Shown here: in pieces, positions 9,203 through 57,650 of the stretch
Layout: every line of letters starts with the position of its first letter
How positions within the stretch are numbered: the stretch's first letter is position 1
NCBI RefSeq assembly: GCF_024362405.1
Contig: NZ_CP101454.1
Location: forward strand, 1,984,001 to 2,048,000
Source of the DNA: Halorarius litoreus
GTDB lineage: Archaea; Halobacteriota; Halobacteria; Halobacteriales; Haloarculaceae
Length of the DNA: 64,000 nucleotides
Reading direction: 5' to 3'
The notes under the pieces: generated by a model
Databases searched by the model: none
What the model was told of the DNA's origin: nothing
What the model saw: the letters and a program-made list of their open reading frames with translations, nothing else
Position numbers and translations under genes: made by a program

Positions 9203-9974
9203 CGCTCTCCTCCGACACCTCGGCTGTGGTCGCGACCGCCACCGGCCCCTCGACGCAGAACTCACGGCGCGTCAGATCCCCGATGTCACGGCACGCGGCC
9301 GCGATGGCCTGTTCGATGCGGGCGGCGAACGGTGCGTCCGTCTCCCCCCACAGCCCCGGGTGCGTCAGCAGCTGGACGTGGGCGCCGAGCTCGTCGGCCA
9401 GCGGGTGCTGGTCGCGCCAGCGCTGTGAGGAGTCGGCGACGTAGTCGATCTCGCTGAAGAACTGCGGCTCGTAGGTGTGCTGCAGTCCCGGGAACTCGCG
9501 GTCGAGTACCCACGCGGGTGGAATGTGGAACGATATCGTCTCGATGGGGGCGTTGGCGACCGCGGCGAGCGCCGCCTGTTCGCGGCGGACCGCTCGCAGG
9601 AGGTCGCTGTCGCTCGGTTGTTCGTCGGCCGGCCAGTACGTGTGGGTGCTAAAGTGGACTCCCACGTCGTGGCCCAGCGCCTCGAGTTCGGCGATCTGTT
9701 CGCGCGTCTCTCGTTCGAACACGTTGTAGAGCGGCGAGGAGACGAGCAGGAAGTACGTCGACTGGACACCGAGGTCCGCCTCGATGTGCGCCATCTCGAC
9801 GGCCGCACCGACCGAGAGGTCCACGTCGTGGCGCGCCACGAGGTCACCGTCGGTCAGCCGGTCGTCGAACGAACGGAACCGGTAGCCGTCCGACTGGAGC
9901 CGCTCGAGGAACACGCGGTACCAGCGGTGTGTGTACTCGACGTCGCGGAGCGACTGGTCGGCGATTTCACCCAT
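9195..9974 (-). CDS. WbmS-like polysaccharide deacetylase family protein
   Basis: The 259-residue protein has ARHDVDLSVGAA (residues 48-59), which supplies the catalytic and metal-binding Asp of NodB-like deacetylases, then HFSTHTYW (HxxxH metal ligands) and a late SFHIPPAW motif. This pattern matches the WbmS-type proteins of lipopolysaccharide loci, where N-deacetylation of a sugar is proposed. It is the first gene of the four-gene minus-strand operon. The upstream region holds an AT-rich stretch (about 9998-10014) that could supply the promoter. Whether it acts on a nucleotide sugar or a lipid-linked glycan cannot be told. Confidence 0.82.
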   Translation of the reverse strand: MGEIADQSLRDVEYTHRWYRVFLERLQSDGYRFRSFDDRLTDGDLVARHDVDLSVGAAVEMAHIEADLGVQSTYFLLVSSPLYNVFERETREQIAELEALGHDVGVHFSTHTYWPADEQPSDSDLLRAVRREQAALAAVANAPIETISFHIPPAWVLDREFPGLQHTYEPQFFSEIDYVADSSQRWRDQHPLADELGAHVQLLTHPGLWGETDAPFAARIEQAIAAACRDIGDLTRREFCVEGPVAVATTAEVSEESDV

Positions 9975-51590: not shown

Positions 51591-52455
51591 ATGAGCGAGT
51601 GGGTGCCGACGACCTGCGTGCGGTGTGCAGTCGGCTGTGGCCACCTCCAGCGTGGCGTCGAAGAGGGGTACGGGCTGGCCGCCGTTCGCGGGGACGCGAC
51701 CCACCCGACGAACAACGGACTCGCGTGCCAGCGGGGCATCAACGAGACCTCGGACCCCGACGGCGAGTGGCTGACGCGCCCTCTGGTCAGGCGTGACGGC
51801 GACCTCCACCCGACGACGTGGGACGTGGCGCTCGACGTGGTCGAGACGGCGCTCCGGGACTCGCTCGCCGAGACCCGCGATTTGGTCGCGGTGCTCGGGA
51901 GCGGCCAGCAGACGAACGAGGCCGCCTACCTCCTCGGGAAACTCGCCCGCGGCGGCTTCGGAACGCGCCACTACGACGCCAACACGACGCTCTGTATGGC
52001 GAGCGCCGTCACCGCCTACTACGACGCGTTCGGGAGCGACGCGCCGCCGCCGACGTACGACGACATCCCCGAAGCCGAGAGCCACGTCATCTGGGGGGCG
52101 AACCCGTCGGCCGCTCACCCGGTGATGTACCGCTGGATCACCCAGAGCGCCCTCGAGGGGACGTTCATCGTCGTCGACCCGGTGGCGACCGACACGGCGC
52201 TCGACGCGGACCGCCACGTCGCGCCCACACCCGGAACGGACCTCCAGCTCGCCCGGGCGGTGCTCGCCCGGTGCGTCGAGACCGACGGCATCGACCGCGA
52301 GTTCGTGAAGGCACACACCACGGGGTTCGACGACCTCGTCGCCGACCTTCCGGACCCCGAGGCCGCCGCCGACGAAGCCGGCGTCTCGATGGCGGACGTG
52401 GACGCGCTCGCCGCGGCGCTCGACGACCCAACCCTGCTGTACTGCTCCAGTTCCG
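51591..52455 (+). pseudogene. nasA-like molybdopterin oxidoreductase, N-terminal fragment
   Basis: About 285 residues match the N-terminus of assimilatory nitrate reductase or formate dehydrogenase: the 4Fe-4S motif [12 protein letters not shown] with CQRG, then [29 protein letters not shown] and WGANPSAAHPVM. Family members usually run to about 650-750 residues; here identity stops near TLLYCSS (about 52440-52460) and the frame ends at 52511 in sequence antisense to an Lrp gene. The C-terminal cofactor domains are gone, so nitrate reduction is not possible. It stands in a nitrogen-control region. Confidence 0.82.
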
Positions 52456-52462
52456 TCGCCGA

Positions 52463-52792
52463 GCCGAAGGTCCCGACCGCAAGGAGGGTCCACTTGCCGG
52501 TCACCTCGTAGACGGTCCGGAACCGCTCGGCGTCGCGGAGGCGGTCGGCAACCGCGTCGACGGCGTCGTCGCGCATCTGGAGGCGAAACACCGCCGTCGT
52601 CCCGTAGCCCGCCCGCTCGTAGTCGACGACCGCGGTGTAGCCCTCGACGACGCCTCGCTCCTCCATCGCCTTGAGTCGGTTGCGGACGGTCGTCCCCGGG
52701 ATGCCGGTGGCGTCGGCGATCTCCAGCAGCTCGGCGCGGGCGTCCGACTGGAGCGCCGCGACGATGCGCGCGTCGGTGTCGTCGACGGTCAC
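52463..52792 (-). pseudogene. Lrp/AsnC regulator, N-terminal fragment
   Basis: The first 110 residues are a good Lrp/AsnC protein: TDARIVAALQSDARAELLEI, the HTH TGIPGTTVRNRLKAMEERG and a RAM-domain start ending KWTLLAVGTFG. After this the frame continues to 52115 with low-complexity Ser/Ala/Arg sequence that is simply the complement of the nasA fragment. About 40-50 residues of RAM domain are missing, so ligand sensing and oligomerisation should be lost, although DNA binding might survive. Its promoter carries the shared 46-bp nitrogen element. Confidence 0.82.
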
Positions 52793-52933
52793 GCGCGCTC
52801 ACCCGGACGGGTGTCCGGTTCGAACCTCGAACGCACTACGAACGTACTCCGATTCACGTGCGAGCGTGATGAGGTTCCAATATATGGGTCTGTCGTTAAA
52901 ATTATCGAGTATATGGTCTCTTGTGATGACGTC

Positions 52934-52979
52934 CGTCCAGAATTACCCACGGTATTACGGATATAAGGTCGTTCTTCGT
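52934..52979 (-). promoter_or_regulatory. 46-bp nitrogen-gene upstream element, copy 1
   Basis: The right-hand 27 bp (52953-52979: TATTACGGATATAAGG then TCGTTCTTCGT, plus strand) are identical in all three copies. It ends 142 bp from the lrp fragment start, and 46-48 bp above a likely TATA sequence (CCAATATATGGG, 52877-52888). It also has an 11-bp inverted repeat arm CGTCCAGAATT with AATTCTGGACG at 53006-53016. Confidence 0.8.
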
Positions 52980-53130
52980 GGCGAAACCCCGCGAATACTC
53001 GCCTGAATTCTGGACGCTCGTCAACCGCCGTTCGCGGGAGATCCGGGGGCGAACGCTCGCGCGCGGACTCGGGAGCGAGGGCTGTCGCTCGCGAGCGTGA
53101 GGTCGAACGAGAAGAGGCGGGGTGGCTAGT

Positions 53131-54834
53131 TCAGACCGCTTCGGGACCGGTCTTCCCCGTCCGAATCTGGTGTGCCTCCTCGACGGGGAGGATGAACACC
53201 TTCCCGTCGCCCGGTTCGCCCGTGGTTCCGGAGTCGCGGATGGCCTGTGCGACCTCCTCGGCCGGCACGTCGGCGACGACACACTCGATCTTCACCTTCT
53301 GGTGGAGGTCGACCGTGTACTCCTCGCCGCGCCACTGGCCCTTCTTCGCGGGCTGTGAGCCGCGTCCGGAGACGTTCGTGACGGTGAGCGAGGGCGCGCC
53401 GATTTCGGCGAGTCCACGCTTCACGTCGGAGAGCTTGTCCGGGCGGATGTACGCCATGACGAGCTTGATGCCGCCGTCGTTCGGGCGGCCGCCGTCGGTG
53501 CGGATGATGCCACCGTCGGCGGCGGTGTCGCGACCGCCGAACTCGGGGTAGGTGTCGACGCCGTGTTCCGAGACGTCGAGGCCCTCGCGCTCGTGGTCAG
53601 GCGAGACACGCGCCTCACCCATCGCCCGGAGCAGGCCGAAGACGGCGGCCGTGGCGGCGACCGTCCAGACGGTGATGAGGACAACGAGTGCGACCTGGCC
53701 GACGAGCGCGTCGGTGAAGAACGCGACGTCGAAGCCGCTCGCCCACGTCGGGACGGCGACGAACGGGTACAGCAGCGCGCCGAGCAGGCCCGCCGAGCCG
53801 TGAACCGGGAACACCGCACAGACGTCGTCGATCTTCAGCCGCTTCTCGACGAACTCGAAGACGATGGGGAGCTGGGCCCCGGCGATGAGGCCGACGGCGA
53901 GCGCACCCACCCACAGGATGTCGTCGGTGATCGAGGTGATACCGACGAGGCCGGCGAGCATCCCGTTGGCGACGTACAGCGTGTCGACCTTGCCGGTCTT
54001 CAGCATCGCCATTCCACCTGCCCCGATGGCCCCGGCGGCCATCCCGAGCGTCGTGGTCAGGGCGACGCGGCCGACGTAGTCGAACGCGCCGAGTGCGAGC
54101 ACGCCCTCGGCGGCCTCGCCGGAACTGAATACGGACGCGGCGGTGCCGACGTTGAAGCCGTACCAGCCGAACGCGAGGATGAGCGTCCCCAGGACGGCGA
54201 AGGTCAGCGAGTGGCCGGGGATGACGTTGACGCTCCCGTCCTCGTTGTAACGGTCGAGCCGGGGGCCGATGATCCACGCCGCGGTGAGGCCGGCGACGCC
54301 GCCCATGCCGTGGACGATGACGCCGCCCGCGAAGTCGTGGAAGCCGATGACCGACAGGATGCCGCCGGCCCACGTGAACCCGACGACGACCGGGTAGATG
54401 ACCGCCGCGAGCAGGATGGTGTACGTCACGTACGCGCGGAGCTTCGCGCGCCCCGCCACGGCGCCGGAGACGATGGTCGCCGCCGTCATGGCGAACACCG
54501 CGCCGAACAGCCAGCTGACCCAGCCGCCCGAGTCGGACGACCAGGTGGCGACGATGTCCGAGAGCGCGTACGAGCCGCCACTCGTCAGACCACCGACGAC
54601 GGTCGAGACGCCTGCCCCCACGAGGAAGAACGCGATGACGCCGATACTCCACGTCAGCATGTTCTTCGTGAGCTGGTTCGCGACGTTCTTCGAGCGCACC
54701 TGCCCCGCCTCCAGCATGGCGAAGCCGGCGTGCATGAAGAAGATGAGGAAGGTGACGGTCAACACCCACAGCAGGTTGACCCCTTCCGCGAGCGTCGCGA
54801 TGTCGACGCCCGACTGCAGGACGATACCGTTCAT
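53131..54834 (-). CDS. amt: Ammonium transporter fused to P-II protein (Amt-GlnK)
   Basis: A 567-residue in-frame fusion. Residues 1-415 form an Amt channel with 11 helices, including the [16 protein letters not shown] and [12 protein letters not shown] motifs with pore His residues. A linker (about 415-455, [15 protein letters not shown] and Gly/Asp-rich) joins a complete GlnK-type P-II domain, [20 protein letters not shown] to the end, with T-loop Tyr in [11 protein letters not shown] normally blocks Amt when glutamine/ATP status signals nitrogen sufficiency; here it is tethered. The position equivalent to Tyr46 of the T-loop is Trp (GQWRG). Paralogous amt and glnK are separate at 55.5-57.3 kb. 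Confidence 0.95.
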
Positions 54835-54975
54835 TCGCTATCACGTGGACGAGTGTCCACCTTCGAGACGATTTCTGCAATGATGTTGCGCTGCGTCACG
54901 GGAGAGCGTGACGTAACTCCTATACATAAGTATTTGCTTGAAAAACGTGCTTTTTCGCATTATATTAGGGACGGC

Positions 54976-55021
54976 CGTCCAAAATAGGGTACGATATTAC
55001 GGATATAAGGTCGTTCTTCGT
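54976..55021 (-). promoter_or_regulatory. 46-bp nitrogen-gene upstream element, copy 2
   Basis: Its 27-bp core is 54995-55021 and it ends 142 bp upstream of the Amt-GlnK start, the same distance as copy 1. A possible TATA sequence (TATACATAAG, 54921-54930) lies 46 bp further toward the gene. Confidence 0.85.
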
Positions 55022-55120
55022 CAGGTAATTCGGCGAATGTTCGCCGCGAAGCTGTACGACCGTCCAGCGTGGAACGCCGAAACATTCGGGATTCGGTCGG
55101 TGCGCGCGTGGTGCGCGCGC

Positions 55121-55546
55121 CTACAGCAGGTCGCGCTGGTCCCCCTCGACGACCGTCCGGAGCGCGTCGTTCGCGCCGACGCGGTGGACGCGGTCGTCGG
55201 TCGCCAGCCGCGCGAGGAACGCCTCGCGGGCCGTGCCGGTGGTGAACCGACAGACGGCAAGCAGGTTCTCGCTCCCGGTCAGTTCGAACACCGAGAGCGC
55301 CCCGGCGTCGCGGAGCCACGCGGCGACCGCCGGGACGTCCGGGCGTGACACCGCCAGCCGGACCAGCACCGTCCGCGCGTCGAGCGCGTCGTGGTCGACG
55401 AGCGGTGCGTACCCCCTGATGCGGCCGTCGGCTTCGAGTGCATCCAGTCGCCTCCCGAGTGTCGCGGCGAGTGAGCGCCGCCCGACAGGCTCGTCGTGGC
55501 CCCCGACCGAGGAATCCGCTCCCCGCCCGTCGGGCCGTCCGGACAC
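55121..55546 (-). CDS. Lrp/AsnC-type regulator with shortened HTH
   Basis: A 141-residue protein. Its C-terminal two-thirds is a normal RAM domain (RIRGYAPLVDHDALDARTVL, VFELTGSENLLAVCRF, DRVHRVGANDALRTVV). The N-terminal HTH is short: the recognition-helix-like AATLGRRLDALEADGR is kept, but the typical first helix DxxDRxIL is replaced by Gly/Ser-rich residues. It starts with GTG at 55546, 2 bp after the glnK stop, so it is the third gene of an amt-glnK-lrp operon. DNA binding may be altered; it could act as a partner of another Lrp. Confidence 0.8.
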   Translation of the reverse strand: MSGRPDGRGADSSVGGHDEPVGRRSLAATLGRRLDALEADGRIRGYAPLVDHDALDARTVLVRLAVSRPDVPAVAAWLRDAGALSVFELTGSENLLAVCRFTTGTAREAFLARLATDDRVHRVGANDALRTVVEGDQRDLL

Positions 55547-55548
55547 GC

Positions 55549-55896
55549 TCAGACGGCCTCGAGACCGGTCTTGCCGGTGCGGATCTGGTAGGCCGAGTCG
55601 ACGGGGAGGATGAACACCTTCCCGTCGCCCGGCTCACCGGTCTTCGCCGCCTCGCAGATGGCCTCGGCGACGTCGCTCCCCTCGATGTCCGCGACGACGC
55701 ACTCGACTTTCACCTTCTGGTGGAGGTCGACGGTGTACTCCTCGCCGCGGTACTGGCTCGTTTTCGCGGGCTGCGACCCACGACCGGAGACGTTCGTGAC
55801 GGTGAGCGAGGGTGCGCCGACCTCGGCGAGCCCACGCTTCACGTCCGCTAGTTTGTCCGGGCGGATGTACGCGATGACCATCTCGATGTCGCTCAT
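55549..55896 (-). CDS. glnK: Nitrogen regulatory protein P-II (GlnK)
   Basis: A 115-residue GlnK that senses ATP/ADP and 2-oxoglutarate and gates the ammonium channel. [18 protein letters not shown] begins the fold; the T-loop contains [21 protein letters not shown] (two Tyr, positions like 46 and 51) and the C-terminus has [19 protein letters not shown] with basic ATP-binding residues. The ATGA overlap with the amt stop shows close coupling. It is followed 2 bp later by an Lrp-type gene. Confidence 0.95.
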
Positions 55897-57275
55897 TCGG
55901 CGTCACCCCCCTCGGACGCGGTGTTGCCACCGTCGGTGCGAACTTCGTAGCCGCCGTCGGCGACCGCCGGGCGGTCGCTCCCGCTGTCGGCGGTGAACTC
56001 GGGGTAGGCGGACATGCCGTGTTCGCCCTGGTCGAGGCCGAGTTCCTCCTCCTCGGCGCTGACACGCAGGCCGATGGTCGCCTTGATGAGACCCATGACG
56101 AGCATCGTCGTCAGCACGGTCCACGTCCCGATGAGCAGGCCGCCGACGACCTGCATGATGAGCTGGTTCATCGAGAAGCCGGCCACGTCGAAGAACGGGA
56201 TGAGCATCGTGCCGATGAACCCCGCGGAGCCGTGGACGGCGAACACGCCACAGACGTCGTCGATCTTCAGGTTGTCGACGACCCAGCGGTAGACGAGCGG
56301 CGTCTGGACGCCGCCGATGATGCCGATGACGAGCGCGCCGGGCCACGAGACGTGGATACACGCGCCCGTGATGGCGACGAGGCCCGCGAGCAGGCCGTTC
56401 GCGCCGAACAGCGGGTCCGGTTTGCCCTCCCAGATGGTCGTGACCGCCGTGGAGGCGACCATGCCGGCGCCCATCGCCAGCGTGGTGTTGAGCGCGACGC
56501 GGCCGAGCGCAGCGCCGTTGAACCCACCGTCACCGGTGAGGACGGTCGCCTGCGTGCCGACGTTGAAGCCGTACCAGCCGAAGGCGAGGATGAGCGTCCC
56601 GATGACCGCGAACAGGACGCTGTGCCCCGGAATCGGCTTGGCGTTGCCGTTTTCATCGAAGCGGCCCTTTCGCGCGCCGACCATGTACGCCGCCGTGAGG
56701 CCGGCGATACCGCCCATCGCGTGGACGACGGTCGCGCCGGCGAAGTCCTTGTAGCCGACGCCGAGCGCCTCACCGAGATAGCCGGTCGAGGAGAGCAGTC
56801 CCGTGCCGCCCCACGTCGACCCGGCGACGACCGGGTAGAGCACGGCGACGAGGGCGAACGCGTAGATGACGTACGACGAGAACTTGATGCGCTCGGCGAC
56901 GGCCCCCGAGACGATGGTCGCCGCCGTCATGGCGAACACCGCACCGAACAGCCAGCCGATCCACGCGGTCGGGTCGTTGATGTACGCGAACGCCCCCGAG
57001 ATGGAGAGTTCGACGCTCGGCGAACCGAGCATCCCCGCGATGGCGGAGACGCCCGCCCCGACGAGGAAGAACACCAGTACCCCCATCGACCAGTCGACCA
57101 TGTTCTTCATCACGACGTTGCCCGCGTTCTTCGCGCGGACCTGTCCAGCCTCCAGCAGCGCGAAGCCCGGCTGCATGAAGAAGATGAGGAACGTCACGAC
57201 CAGCACCCACACCGCGTTGATGCTGTCCGCGATGGCCGTGATGTCACCCTGTAGCGGCAGGAACTCCATCATCAT
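55893..57275 (-). CDS. amt: Ammonium transporter (Amt)
   Basis: A 460-residue Amt with 11 helices that conducts NH3/NH4+. [23 protein letters not shown] is interrupted only by the first helices; [17 protein letters not shown] and [12 protein letters not shown] carry the pore His residues, and the C-terminal tail ([15 protein letters not shown]) is the P-II interaction tail. [11 protein letters not shown] at 57275 is taken as the start, excluding a basic extension to 57362. First gene of an amt-glnK-lrp operon, with the 46-bp element about 151 bp upstream. Confidence 0.94.
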
Positions 57276-57425
57276 TCGATACCTCCGAGCGATTCGAACC
57301 AAATGTCCACGTTTTCGCTTTCGTAATCCATATTCGTACTCTCGTGTGCAGTCGATGCTCACGGAGTTCCACTATATAATGCTTCGGTTGCATGTTTCAA
57401 AATTTCCTGCGTATATTACGAACAA

Positions 57426-57471
57426 CGTCCAAAATACCACACGATATTACGGATATAAGGTCGTTCTTCGT
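57426..57471 (-). promoter_or_regulatory. 46-bp nitrogen-gene upstream element, copy 3
   Basis: Its 27-bp core is 57445-57471. Plus-strand left part CGTCCAAAATA is shared with copy 2. It ends 151 bp from the amt start and 46 bp from TATATA at 57373-57379, the likely TATA box of the amt-glnK-lrp operon. Confidence 0.85.
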
Positions 57472-57650
57472 CGGAAAACTGGCCGCTCGTCGGTCGGGGA
57501 ACTGGACGGTCGTGAACCGGCGAACGAACCGAACGGTCGGAGGGTCCCGTGTGCGCGCGCCGTTCGTCTACTCTTTCGCGATTCGAGTCCGATATCGTCC
57601 AGTTGTTCGCACGTCTCCGTGACGCTGTAGAGCTGTGGGGCGGCGTCCCG

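Follow-up and report, generated by a model that had tools for sequence, protein, structure and literature searches.

Genomic context of the repeated upstream element

The window, i.e. the whole stretch of 64,000 nucleotides analysed in the 4.17-Mb genome of Halorarius litoreus, is haloarchaeal, with a G+C content of 68%, and carries three copies of a shared 46-bp element (52934-52979, 54976-55021 and 57426-57471) upstream of genes that are all encoded on the minus strand. Indeed, (i) copy 1 precedes an lrp fragment (52440..52792), (ii) copy 2 precedes a gene coding for an Amt-PII (GlnK) fusion (53131..54834; PF00909, PF00543), and (iii) copy 3 precedes an amt-glnK-lrp gene run composed of amt (55893..57275; PF00909), glnK (PII) (55549..55896; PF00543) and a degenerate Lrp-like gene without any Pfam match (55121..55546). 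The fusion gene unites the Amt and PII domains in one protein of 567 aa, and many haloarchaea likewise contain long open frames of the amt-PII type. The lrp fragment retains an AsnC-type HTH and is closest to the amt-linked Lrps of another genus (51-56%); it resembles Lrp only up to about residue 117 and has lost the ligand-binding domain. It meets, tail to tail, a nasA gene of the plus strand (51591-52511) that is likewise truncated, its match to the haloarchaeal NasA model (673 positions) ending at position 282. A deletion joining the 3' ends of nasA and lrp, with loss of the nitrate reductase, is probable as the simplest reading of these sequences, the alternative being an assembly error at this junction.

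A 27-mer, TATTACGGATATAAGGTCGTTCTTCGT (ACGAAGAACGACCTTATATCCGTAATA in the sense of the target genes), was recovered by pattern search as exact matches at 52953-52979, 54995-55021 and 57445-57471, which confirms the observation of the initial annotation. These are the only three exact sites of the genome, all of them inside the window, and no other site was found at up to three mismatches; shuffled versions of the window gave 0.03 matches to the 16-mer at the same tolerance. The distances to the start codons (142, 142 and 151 bp) and to the TATA boxes (about 47 bp) were likewise verified on the sequence. Two statements of the same annotation had to be corrected. The copies were thought to share no identity beyond the 46 bp, which is wrong, as they also have in common, all in fixed register, two dyads (-52 and +33), a half box (-10) and a TATA box (+85/86). 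Moreover, the ACGA...TCGT ends of the element are not the conserved dyad, the recurrent one being TGGACGnnCGTCCA.

Architecture of the putative promoter module

The shared 46-bp element is thus the middle of a larger module, far more widespread than the initial annotation indicated. With offset 0 placed at the A of ACGACC (window positions 52972, 55014 and 57464), this module extends over about 210 bp. Boxes of the TGGACGnnCGTCCA type lie at -52 and +33, and half of such a box at -10; the core at 0 reads ACnACCTTATATCnnTAATATC, the TATA box follows at +85/86, and the leader contains a further dyad near +155. The core (0 to +23) lies on the minus strand, as do all features listed here, at 52949..52972 in copy 1, 54991..55014 in copy 2 and 57441..57464 in copy 3, and scores 76.2, 92.4 and 84.7 bits, respectively, with the order-wide PWM. 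Box A (-52) is present as TTGACGAGCGTCCA (53011..53024), TGGACGGTCGTACA (55053..55066) and TTCACGACCGTCCA (57503..57516), and box C (+33) as TGGACGGACGTCAT (52926..52939), TGGACGGCCGTCCC (54968..54981) and TGGACGTTGTTCGT (57418..57431), the right half of the latter being degenerate. A TATA-like box in the CATATATTG region (52880..52888, about +85) is found in copy 1, and TATA boxes are found in copy 2 (ACTTATGTA, 54922..54930, about +85) and in the CATTATATA region of copy 3 (57372..57380, about +86). Box D (+155), located within the leader, reads CGGACACCCGTCCG in copy 1 (52804..52817) and TGGACACTCGTCCA in copy 2 (54846..54859). The -52 and +33 dyads of the window copies score 8-11 out of 12, and the +155 dyads of copies 1 and 2 score 9 and 11; the expectation from shuffled sequences is 0.1-0.2 sites scoring at least 9 per region.

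Each of the three copies has a short ORF (22, 22 and 19 aa) whose end overlaps the start codon of the target gene. These putative leader ORFs are located at 52789..52857 in copy 1 (VNRSTFVVRSRFEPDTRPGERA followed by a stop, overlapping the lrp start), at 54831..54899 in copy 2 (overlapping the amt start) and at 57272..57331 in copy 3 (overlapping the amt start and containing a degenerate box D); the 22-aa ORF is shared, together with the +155 dyad, by copies 1 and 2. Similar overlapping leader ORFs are present in Natrialbaceae. The residues DTRP, common to the copies, are due to the +155 dyad and therefore give no evidence of coding constraint. A search against Rfam for a known structured RNA or riboswitch returned nothing near the gathering score.

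The architecture was then described on a set of 129 non-redundant regions, which represent nine families and were aligned on their core. In this set, the dyad TGGACGnnCGTCCA peaks at -52/-51, at -10 (as a half), at +33 and at +155/156, most regions have a TATA box at +85 to +87 with a conserved CGTGA about 28 bp further on, and the spacing of the module differs by only 1-2 bp across the nine families. Of these peaks, those at -52 and +155 were not covered by the scoring matrix, and they recur separately in Haloferacaceae and Natrialbaceae. An alignment of related regions shows the core and its flanking boxes standing out column by column against weakly conserved surroundings, and across Haloarculaceae the core is kept before amt while the flanks vary. 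In another reading, the three window copies would stem from a single upstream region that was recently multiplied when amt was duplicated, and would be devoid of regulatory meaning. In favour of this, a stretch of 4.6 kb holds all three, next to amt or lrp genes, and copies 1 and 2 have similar leaders. However, identity between the boxes drops to 22-47%, i.e. to background, while the boxes themselves persist, and boxes at the same fixed spacing are kept order-wide, in nine families and before non-homologous genes; this explanation is consequently very improbable and was rejected.

The nas promoters retain the +33 box and the spacing of the TATA box, these two positions having belonged to the matrix and so not constituting an independent result, and the -52 and +155 dyads are not enriched. 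Upstream of one nasA gene (L266) and one narK gene (L294), variants of the module were observed whose core carries its left half in inverted form (ATATAAGG) at an unchanged position. The dyad TGGACGnnCGTCCA alone was also considered as a marker of the regulon: the genome contains 56 sites at up to one mismatch versus 18 for the reversed pattern, which is suggestive, but this marker was set aside because the CG-rich words of the dyad are common in coding DNA.

The CCTTATA of the core could itself be a distal BRE/TATA, in which case amt would be served by a tandem pair of promoters separated by about 80 bp, with the dyad at +33 as an operator over the upstream start. Indeed, +33 is about where such a start would fall, and in some lineages the core resembles the true TATA box (in Natrialbaceae, AACCCTTATAT at the promoter and ACCCTTATA in the core). 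Nevertheless, conservation extends far beyond a BRE/TATA, the inverted half-cores before nasA and narK should not be tolerated by a directional TATA box, and the expected position of the start, about 28 bp downstream of the +85 TATA box, is occupied by the conserved CGTGA, so that a distal promoter appears unlikely.

Distribution and target genes

Within the same family, 76 of the 146 genomes contain a 20-bp core pattern at up to three mismatches, versus only a handful for the reversed control. In nearly all hits examined, amt (for copy 1, the lrp fragment) starts about 180-270 bp downstream, the exceptions being three narK-like sites and three chance-like hits. A first model, built on sequence only (59 positions, E <= 0.05), detected the module in 114 of 243 Halobacteriales genomes, and a broader model (106 positions) in 195 of the 243, as well as in 29 of 30 chosen genomes with one to four sites each. 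The gene amt is present in 216 of the 243 genomes, and the module was absent from all 20 listed Halobacteriales genomes that lack amt. In a sample of 148 genomes of the phylum, all 19 positives belonged to Halobacteriales and none was found outside this order.

All fetched matches of the first model at E < 0.006 lie before amt, narK, nasA or nirA or, in one family, in the leader of hemL, and the four matches without an assigned target all have E >= 0.006. Among 19 further sites obtained with the broader model, 18 precede amt, nasA, narK, nirA or hemL, the remaining one being a weak site (E 0.005); with both models, every fetched match at E < 0.004 precedes one of these genes (hemL in one family). 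The further targets predicted by the initial annotation were therefore found in part by these whole-genome searches, i.e. the nas and other amt sites, while glnA was never a target.

Furthermore, an independent set of 80 loci (1.64 Mb, both strands), picked by NasA protein similarity alone, was searched with a matrix trained on the module set, which consists nearly entirely of amt promoters with few nas/narK promoters, at a cut-off of 18 bits. The 77 matches above this cut-off are distributed before nirA (35), nasA (27), narK (12) and amt (2), with one elsewhere; 76 of them are on the sense strand before one of these four genes, at 176-251 bp in all but one case, and the reversed-sequence control gave a single match. 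About half of the 80 loci had no match above 18 bits. The element thus precedes functionally related genes both across whole genomes and at nitrogen loci chosen independently of it. The lack of a match at about half of the nasA loci and the target of copy 1, lrp, which is not an assimilation gene, count against reading the module as a promoter of nitrogen acquisition.

In several families (L109-L188), the order hemB - module - amt(-PII) - hemL is conserved, linking tetrapyrrole genes to ammonium uptake. In one genus (g44 of family f12; L156, L159, L166, L172, L175, L179 and L187), the module lies between hemB and hemL without amt; in these loci, a possible ORF of 71-73 aa starts about 31 bp below the TATA box; then, ahead of hemL, come a GGAGGTGAT sequence and repeats of the word GGACTGTGCTCA.

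Candidate regulators and comparison with known elements

The regulator was initially and tentatively suggested to be the Lrp encoded by the third gene; an amt-linked Lrp would then regulate its own synthesis. The amt-glnK-lrp order is recurrent in Haloarculaceae, which is consistent with such a role. However, among the families examined an amt-linked lrp was found in Haloarculaceae alone, and not beside amt in the others, although the module is order-wide; linkage to lrp thus does not accompany the module wherever it occurs. In addition, both Lrps of the window are degraded, the lrp of copy 1 having lost its ligand-binding domain and the gene at 55121-55546 matching no Pfam family. The suggestion is not supported, and autoregulation by the amt-linked Lrp is improbable. 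A search for a common transcription factor encoded nearby led to this same Haloarculaceae-restricted Lrp. An intact Lrp gene, divergent from glnA, is present in the genome of the window, and its product is homologous to the glnA-linked Lrp. In Haloferax mediterranei, a pull-down with the nasABC promoter recovered the Lrp whose gene adjoins glnA (PMC8143581), and lrp expression was unchanged with the nitrogen source (PMC8229911). The window's own Lrp genes are poor candidates, and the glnA-adjacent Lrp is a better one, though as a lead only.

Several known elements were compared with the module. The NrpR regulon of methanogenic archaea is likewise governed by an archaeal cis element over nitrogen genes such as glnK-amt, but its operator (GGAA-N6-TTCC) differs in sequence and does not occur within one mismatch in any of the three promoters; the master regulators NrpR/NrpA have been reported as not conserved in haloarchaea (PMC6801745). 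Another proposed haloarchaeal nitrogen element, the AT-rich AAAGACTAART, comes from a prediction on nitrogen-shift genes in Haloferax volcanii; the input of this prediction included the upstream regions of amt1 and amt2, and the motif has 492 upstream matches genome-wide (PMC6801745). Its sequence also differs from that of the module, and it was not found in the three promoters at up to two mismatches. Region 2 of the H. mediterranei nasABC promoter resembles the module in being an upstream site needed for the activity of a nitrate-assimilation promoter, on which an Lrp/AsnC protein was pulled down; this site is published only as TAGAT and is not placed relative to the module (PMC8143581). Upstream of nasA in Haloferax marinum (L263, about 9730-9830), tandem CTAGAT/CTAGAC repeats are present without the module, and perhaps represent a different control of nitrate assimilation. 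Finally, archaeal Lrp/AsnC operators such as that of CsmR (TATCA-N4-TGATA; PMC13286277) are also short dyads upstream of BRE/TATA, for which positive regulation was inferred from position, whereas the module differs in sequence and combines several dyads with a non-palindromic core in a fixed array.

Proposed function

The proposal that the element is an operator of a nitrogen regulator is strongly supported by its order-wide position before amt, nasA, narK and nirA, and essentially nothing else. On these genomic grounds, the module is very probably the nitrogen-scarcity promoter through which haloarchaea acquire inorganic nitrogen in the form of ammonium, nitrate and nitrite. More precisely, the element would be the central part of a conserved Halobacteriales module that switches on amt-glnK, nasA, narK and nirA when combined nitrogen is scarce, a reading to which a probability of about three in four can be given.

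In the proposed mechanism, one regulator or a pair of regulators would bind the -10/core/+33 part, with the TATA box about 40-95 bp further downstream; at low cellular nitrogen the bound regulator would recruit or stabilise TFB/TBP at the +85 TATA box. The fixed spacing suggests that the protein, once bound, has to occupy a given face of the helix. This regulator would most likely be a DNA-binding protein common to the order; among the named candidates for it, the glnA-adjacent Lrp/AsnC protein is the best. The dyads at -52 and +155, which characterise amt but not nas promoters, may add cooperative binding or an ammonium-dependent shut-off at the most tightly controlled gene.

Activation is favoured because of the position upstream of the TATA box, the fixed spacing and the induction of the target genes under nitrogen limitation. 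Published expression data fit with it. Indeed, amt-glnK expression increases under nitrogen limitation without an NtrC/sigma-54 system, "suggesting a novel mechanism" (PMC3831643), and once 5 bp of the nasABC promoter had been changed in H. mediterranei, practically no activity could be detected on nitrate, which was interpreted as the loss of an activator site (PMC8143581). The +155 dyad, downstream of the TATA box, could equally serve repression, and the whole module could be the operator of a nitrogen-sufficiency repressor that occupies the -52, +33 and +155 dyads and blocks the promoter by looping. In amt promoters these three dyads do straddle the TATA box, and NrpR of methanogens acts as a nitrogen repressor. 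On the other hand, none of the dyads overlaps the TATA box or the start, nas promoters show no enrichment of the -52 and +155 dyads, and the nasABC mutation, at a site not placed relative to the module, abolished activity instead of raising it (PMC8143581). Repression is thus a rather unlikely alternative to activation, though less so than a distal promoter in the core.

A broader reading, a little short of even odds, is that the module would be the site of an order-wide nucleoprotein promoter complex for inorganic nitrogen, in which a new haloarchaeal regulator, other than NrpR or NtrC, would act on a rigid array of boxes of about 210 bp, from -52 to the leader. The spacing of these boxes would then have stayed fixed, give or take 1-2 bp, from the last ancestor shared by most Halobacteriales onwards. 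No published description of the module was found in the open-access literature, and subscription papers could hold one.

In haloarchaea, amt-glnK and nas respond to nitrogen while neither NtrC/sigma-54 nor NrpR is present (PMC3831643, PMC6801745, PMC8143581), and no common operator has been reported in searchable papers. The module is a candidate for this missing cis element of nitrogen-uptake control and supplies a list of targets in about 200 genomes, with exact positions for mutation or for use as bait. It also represents a rare archaeal example of a promoter array of about 210 bp held in register throughout an order.
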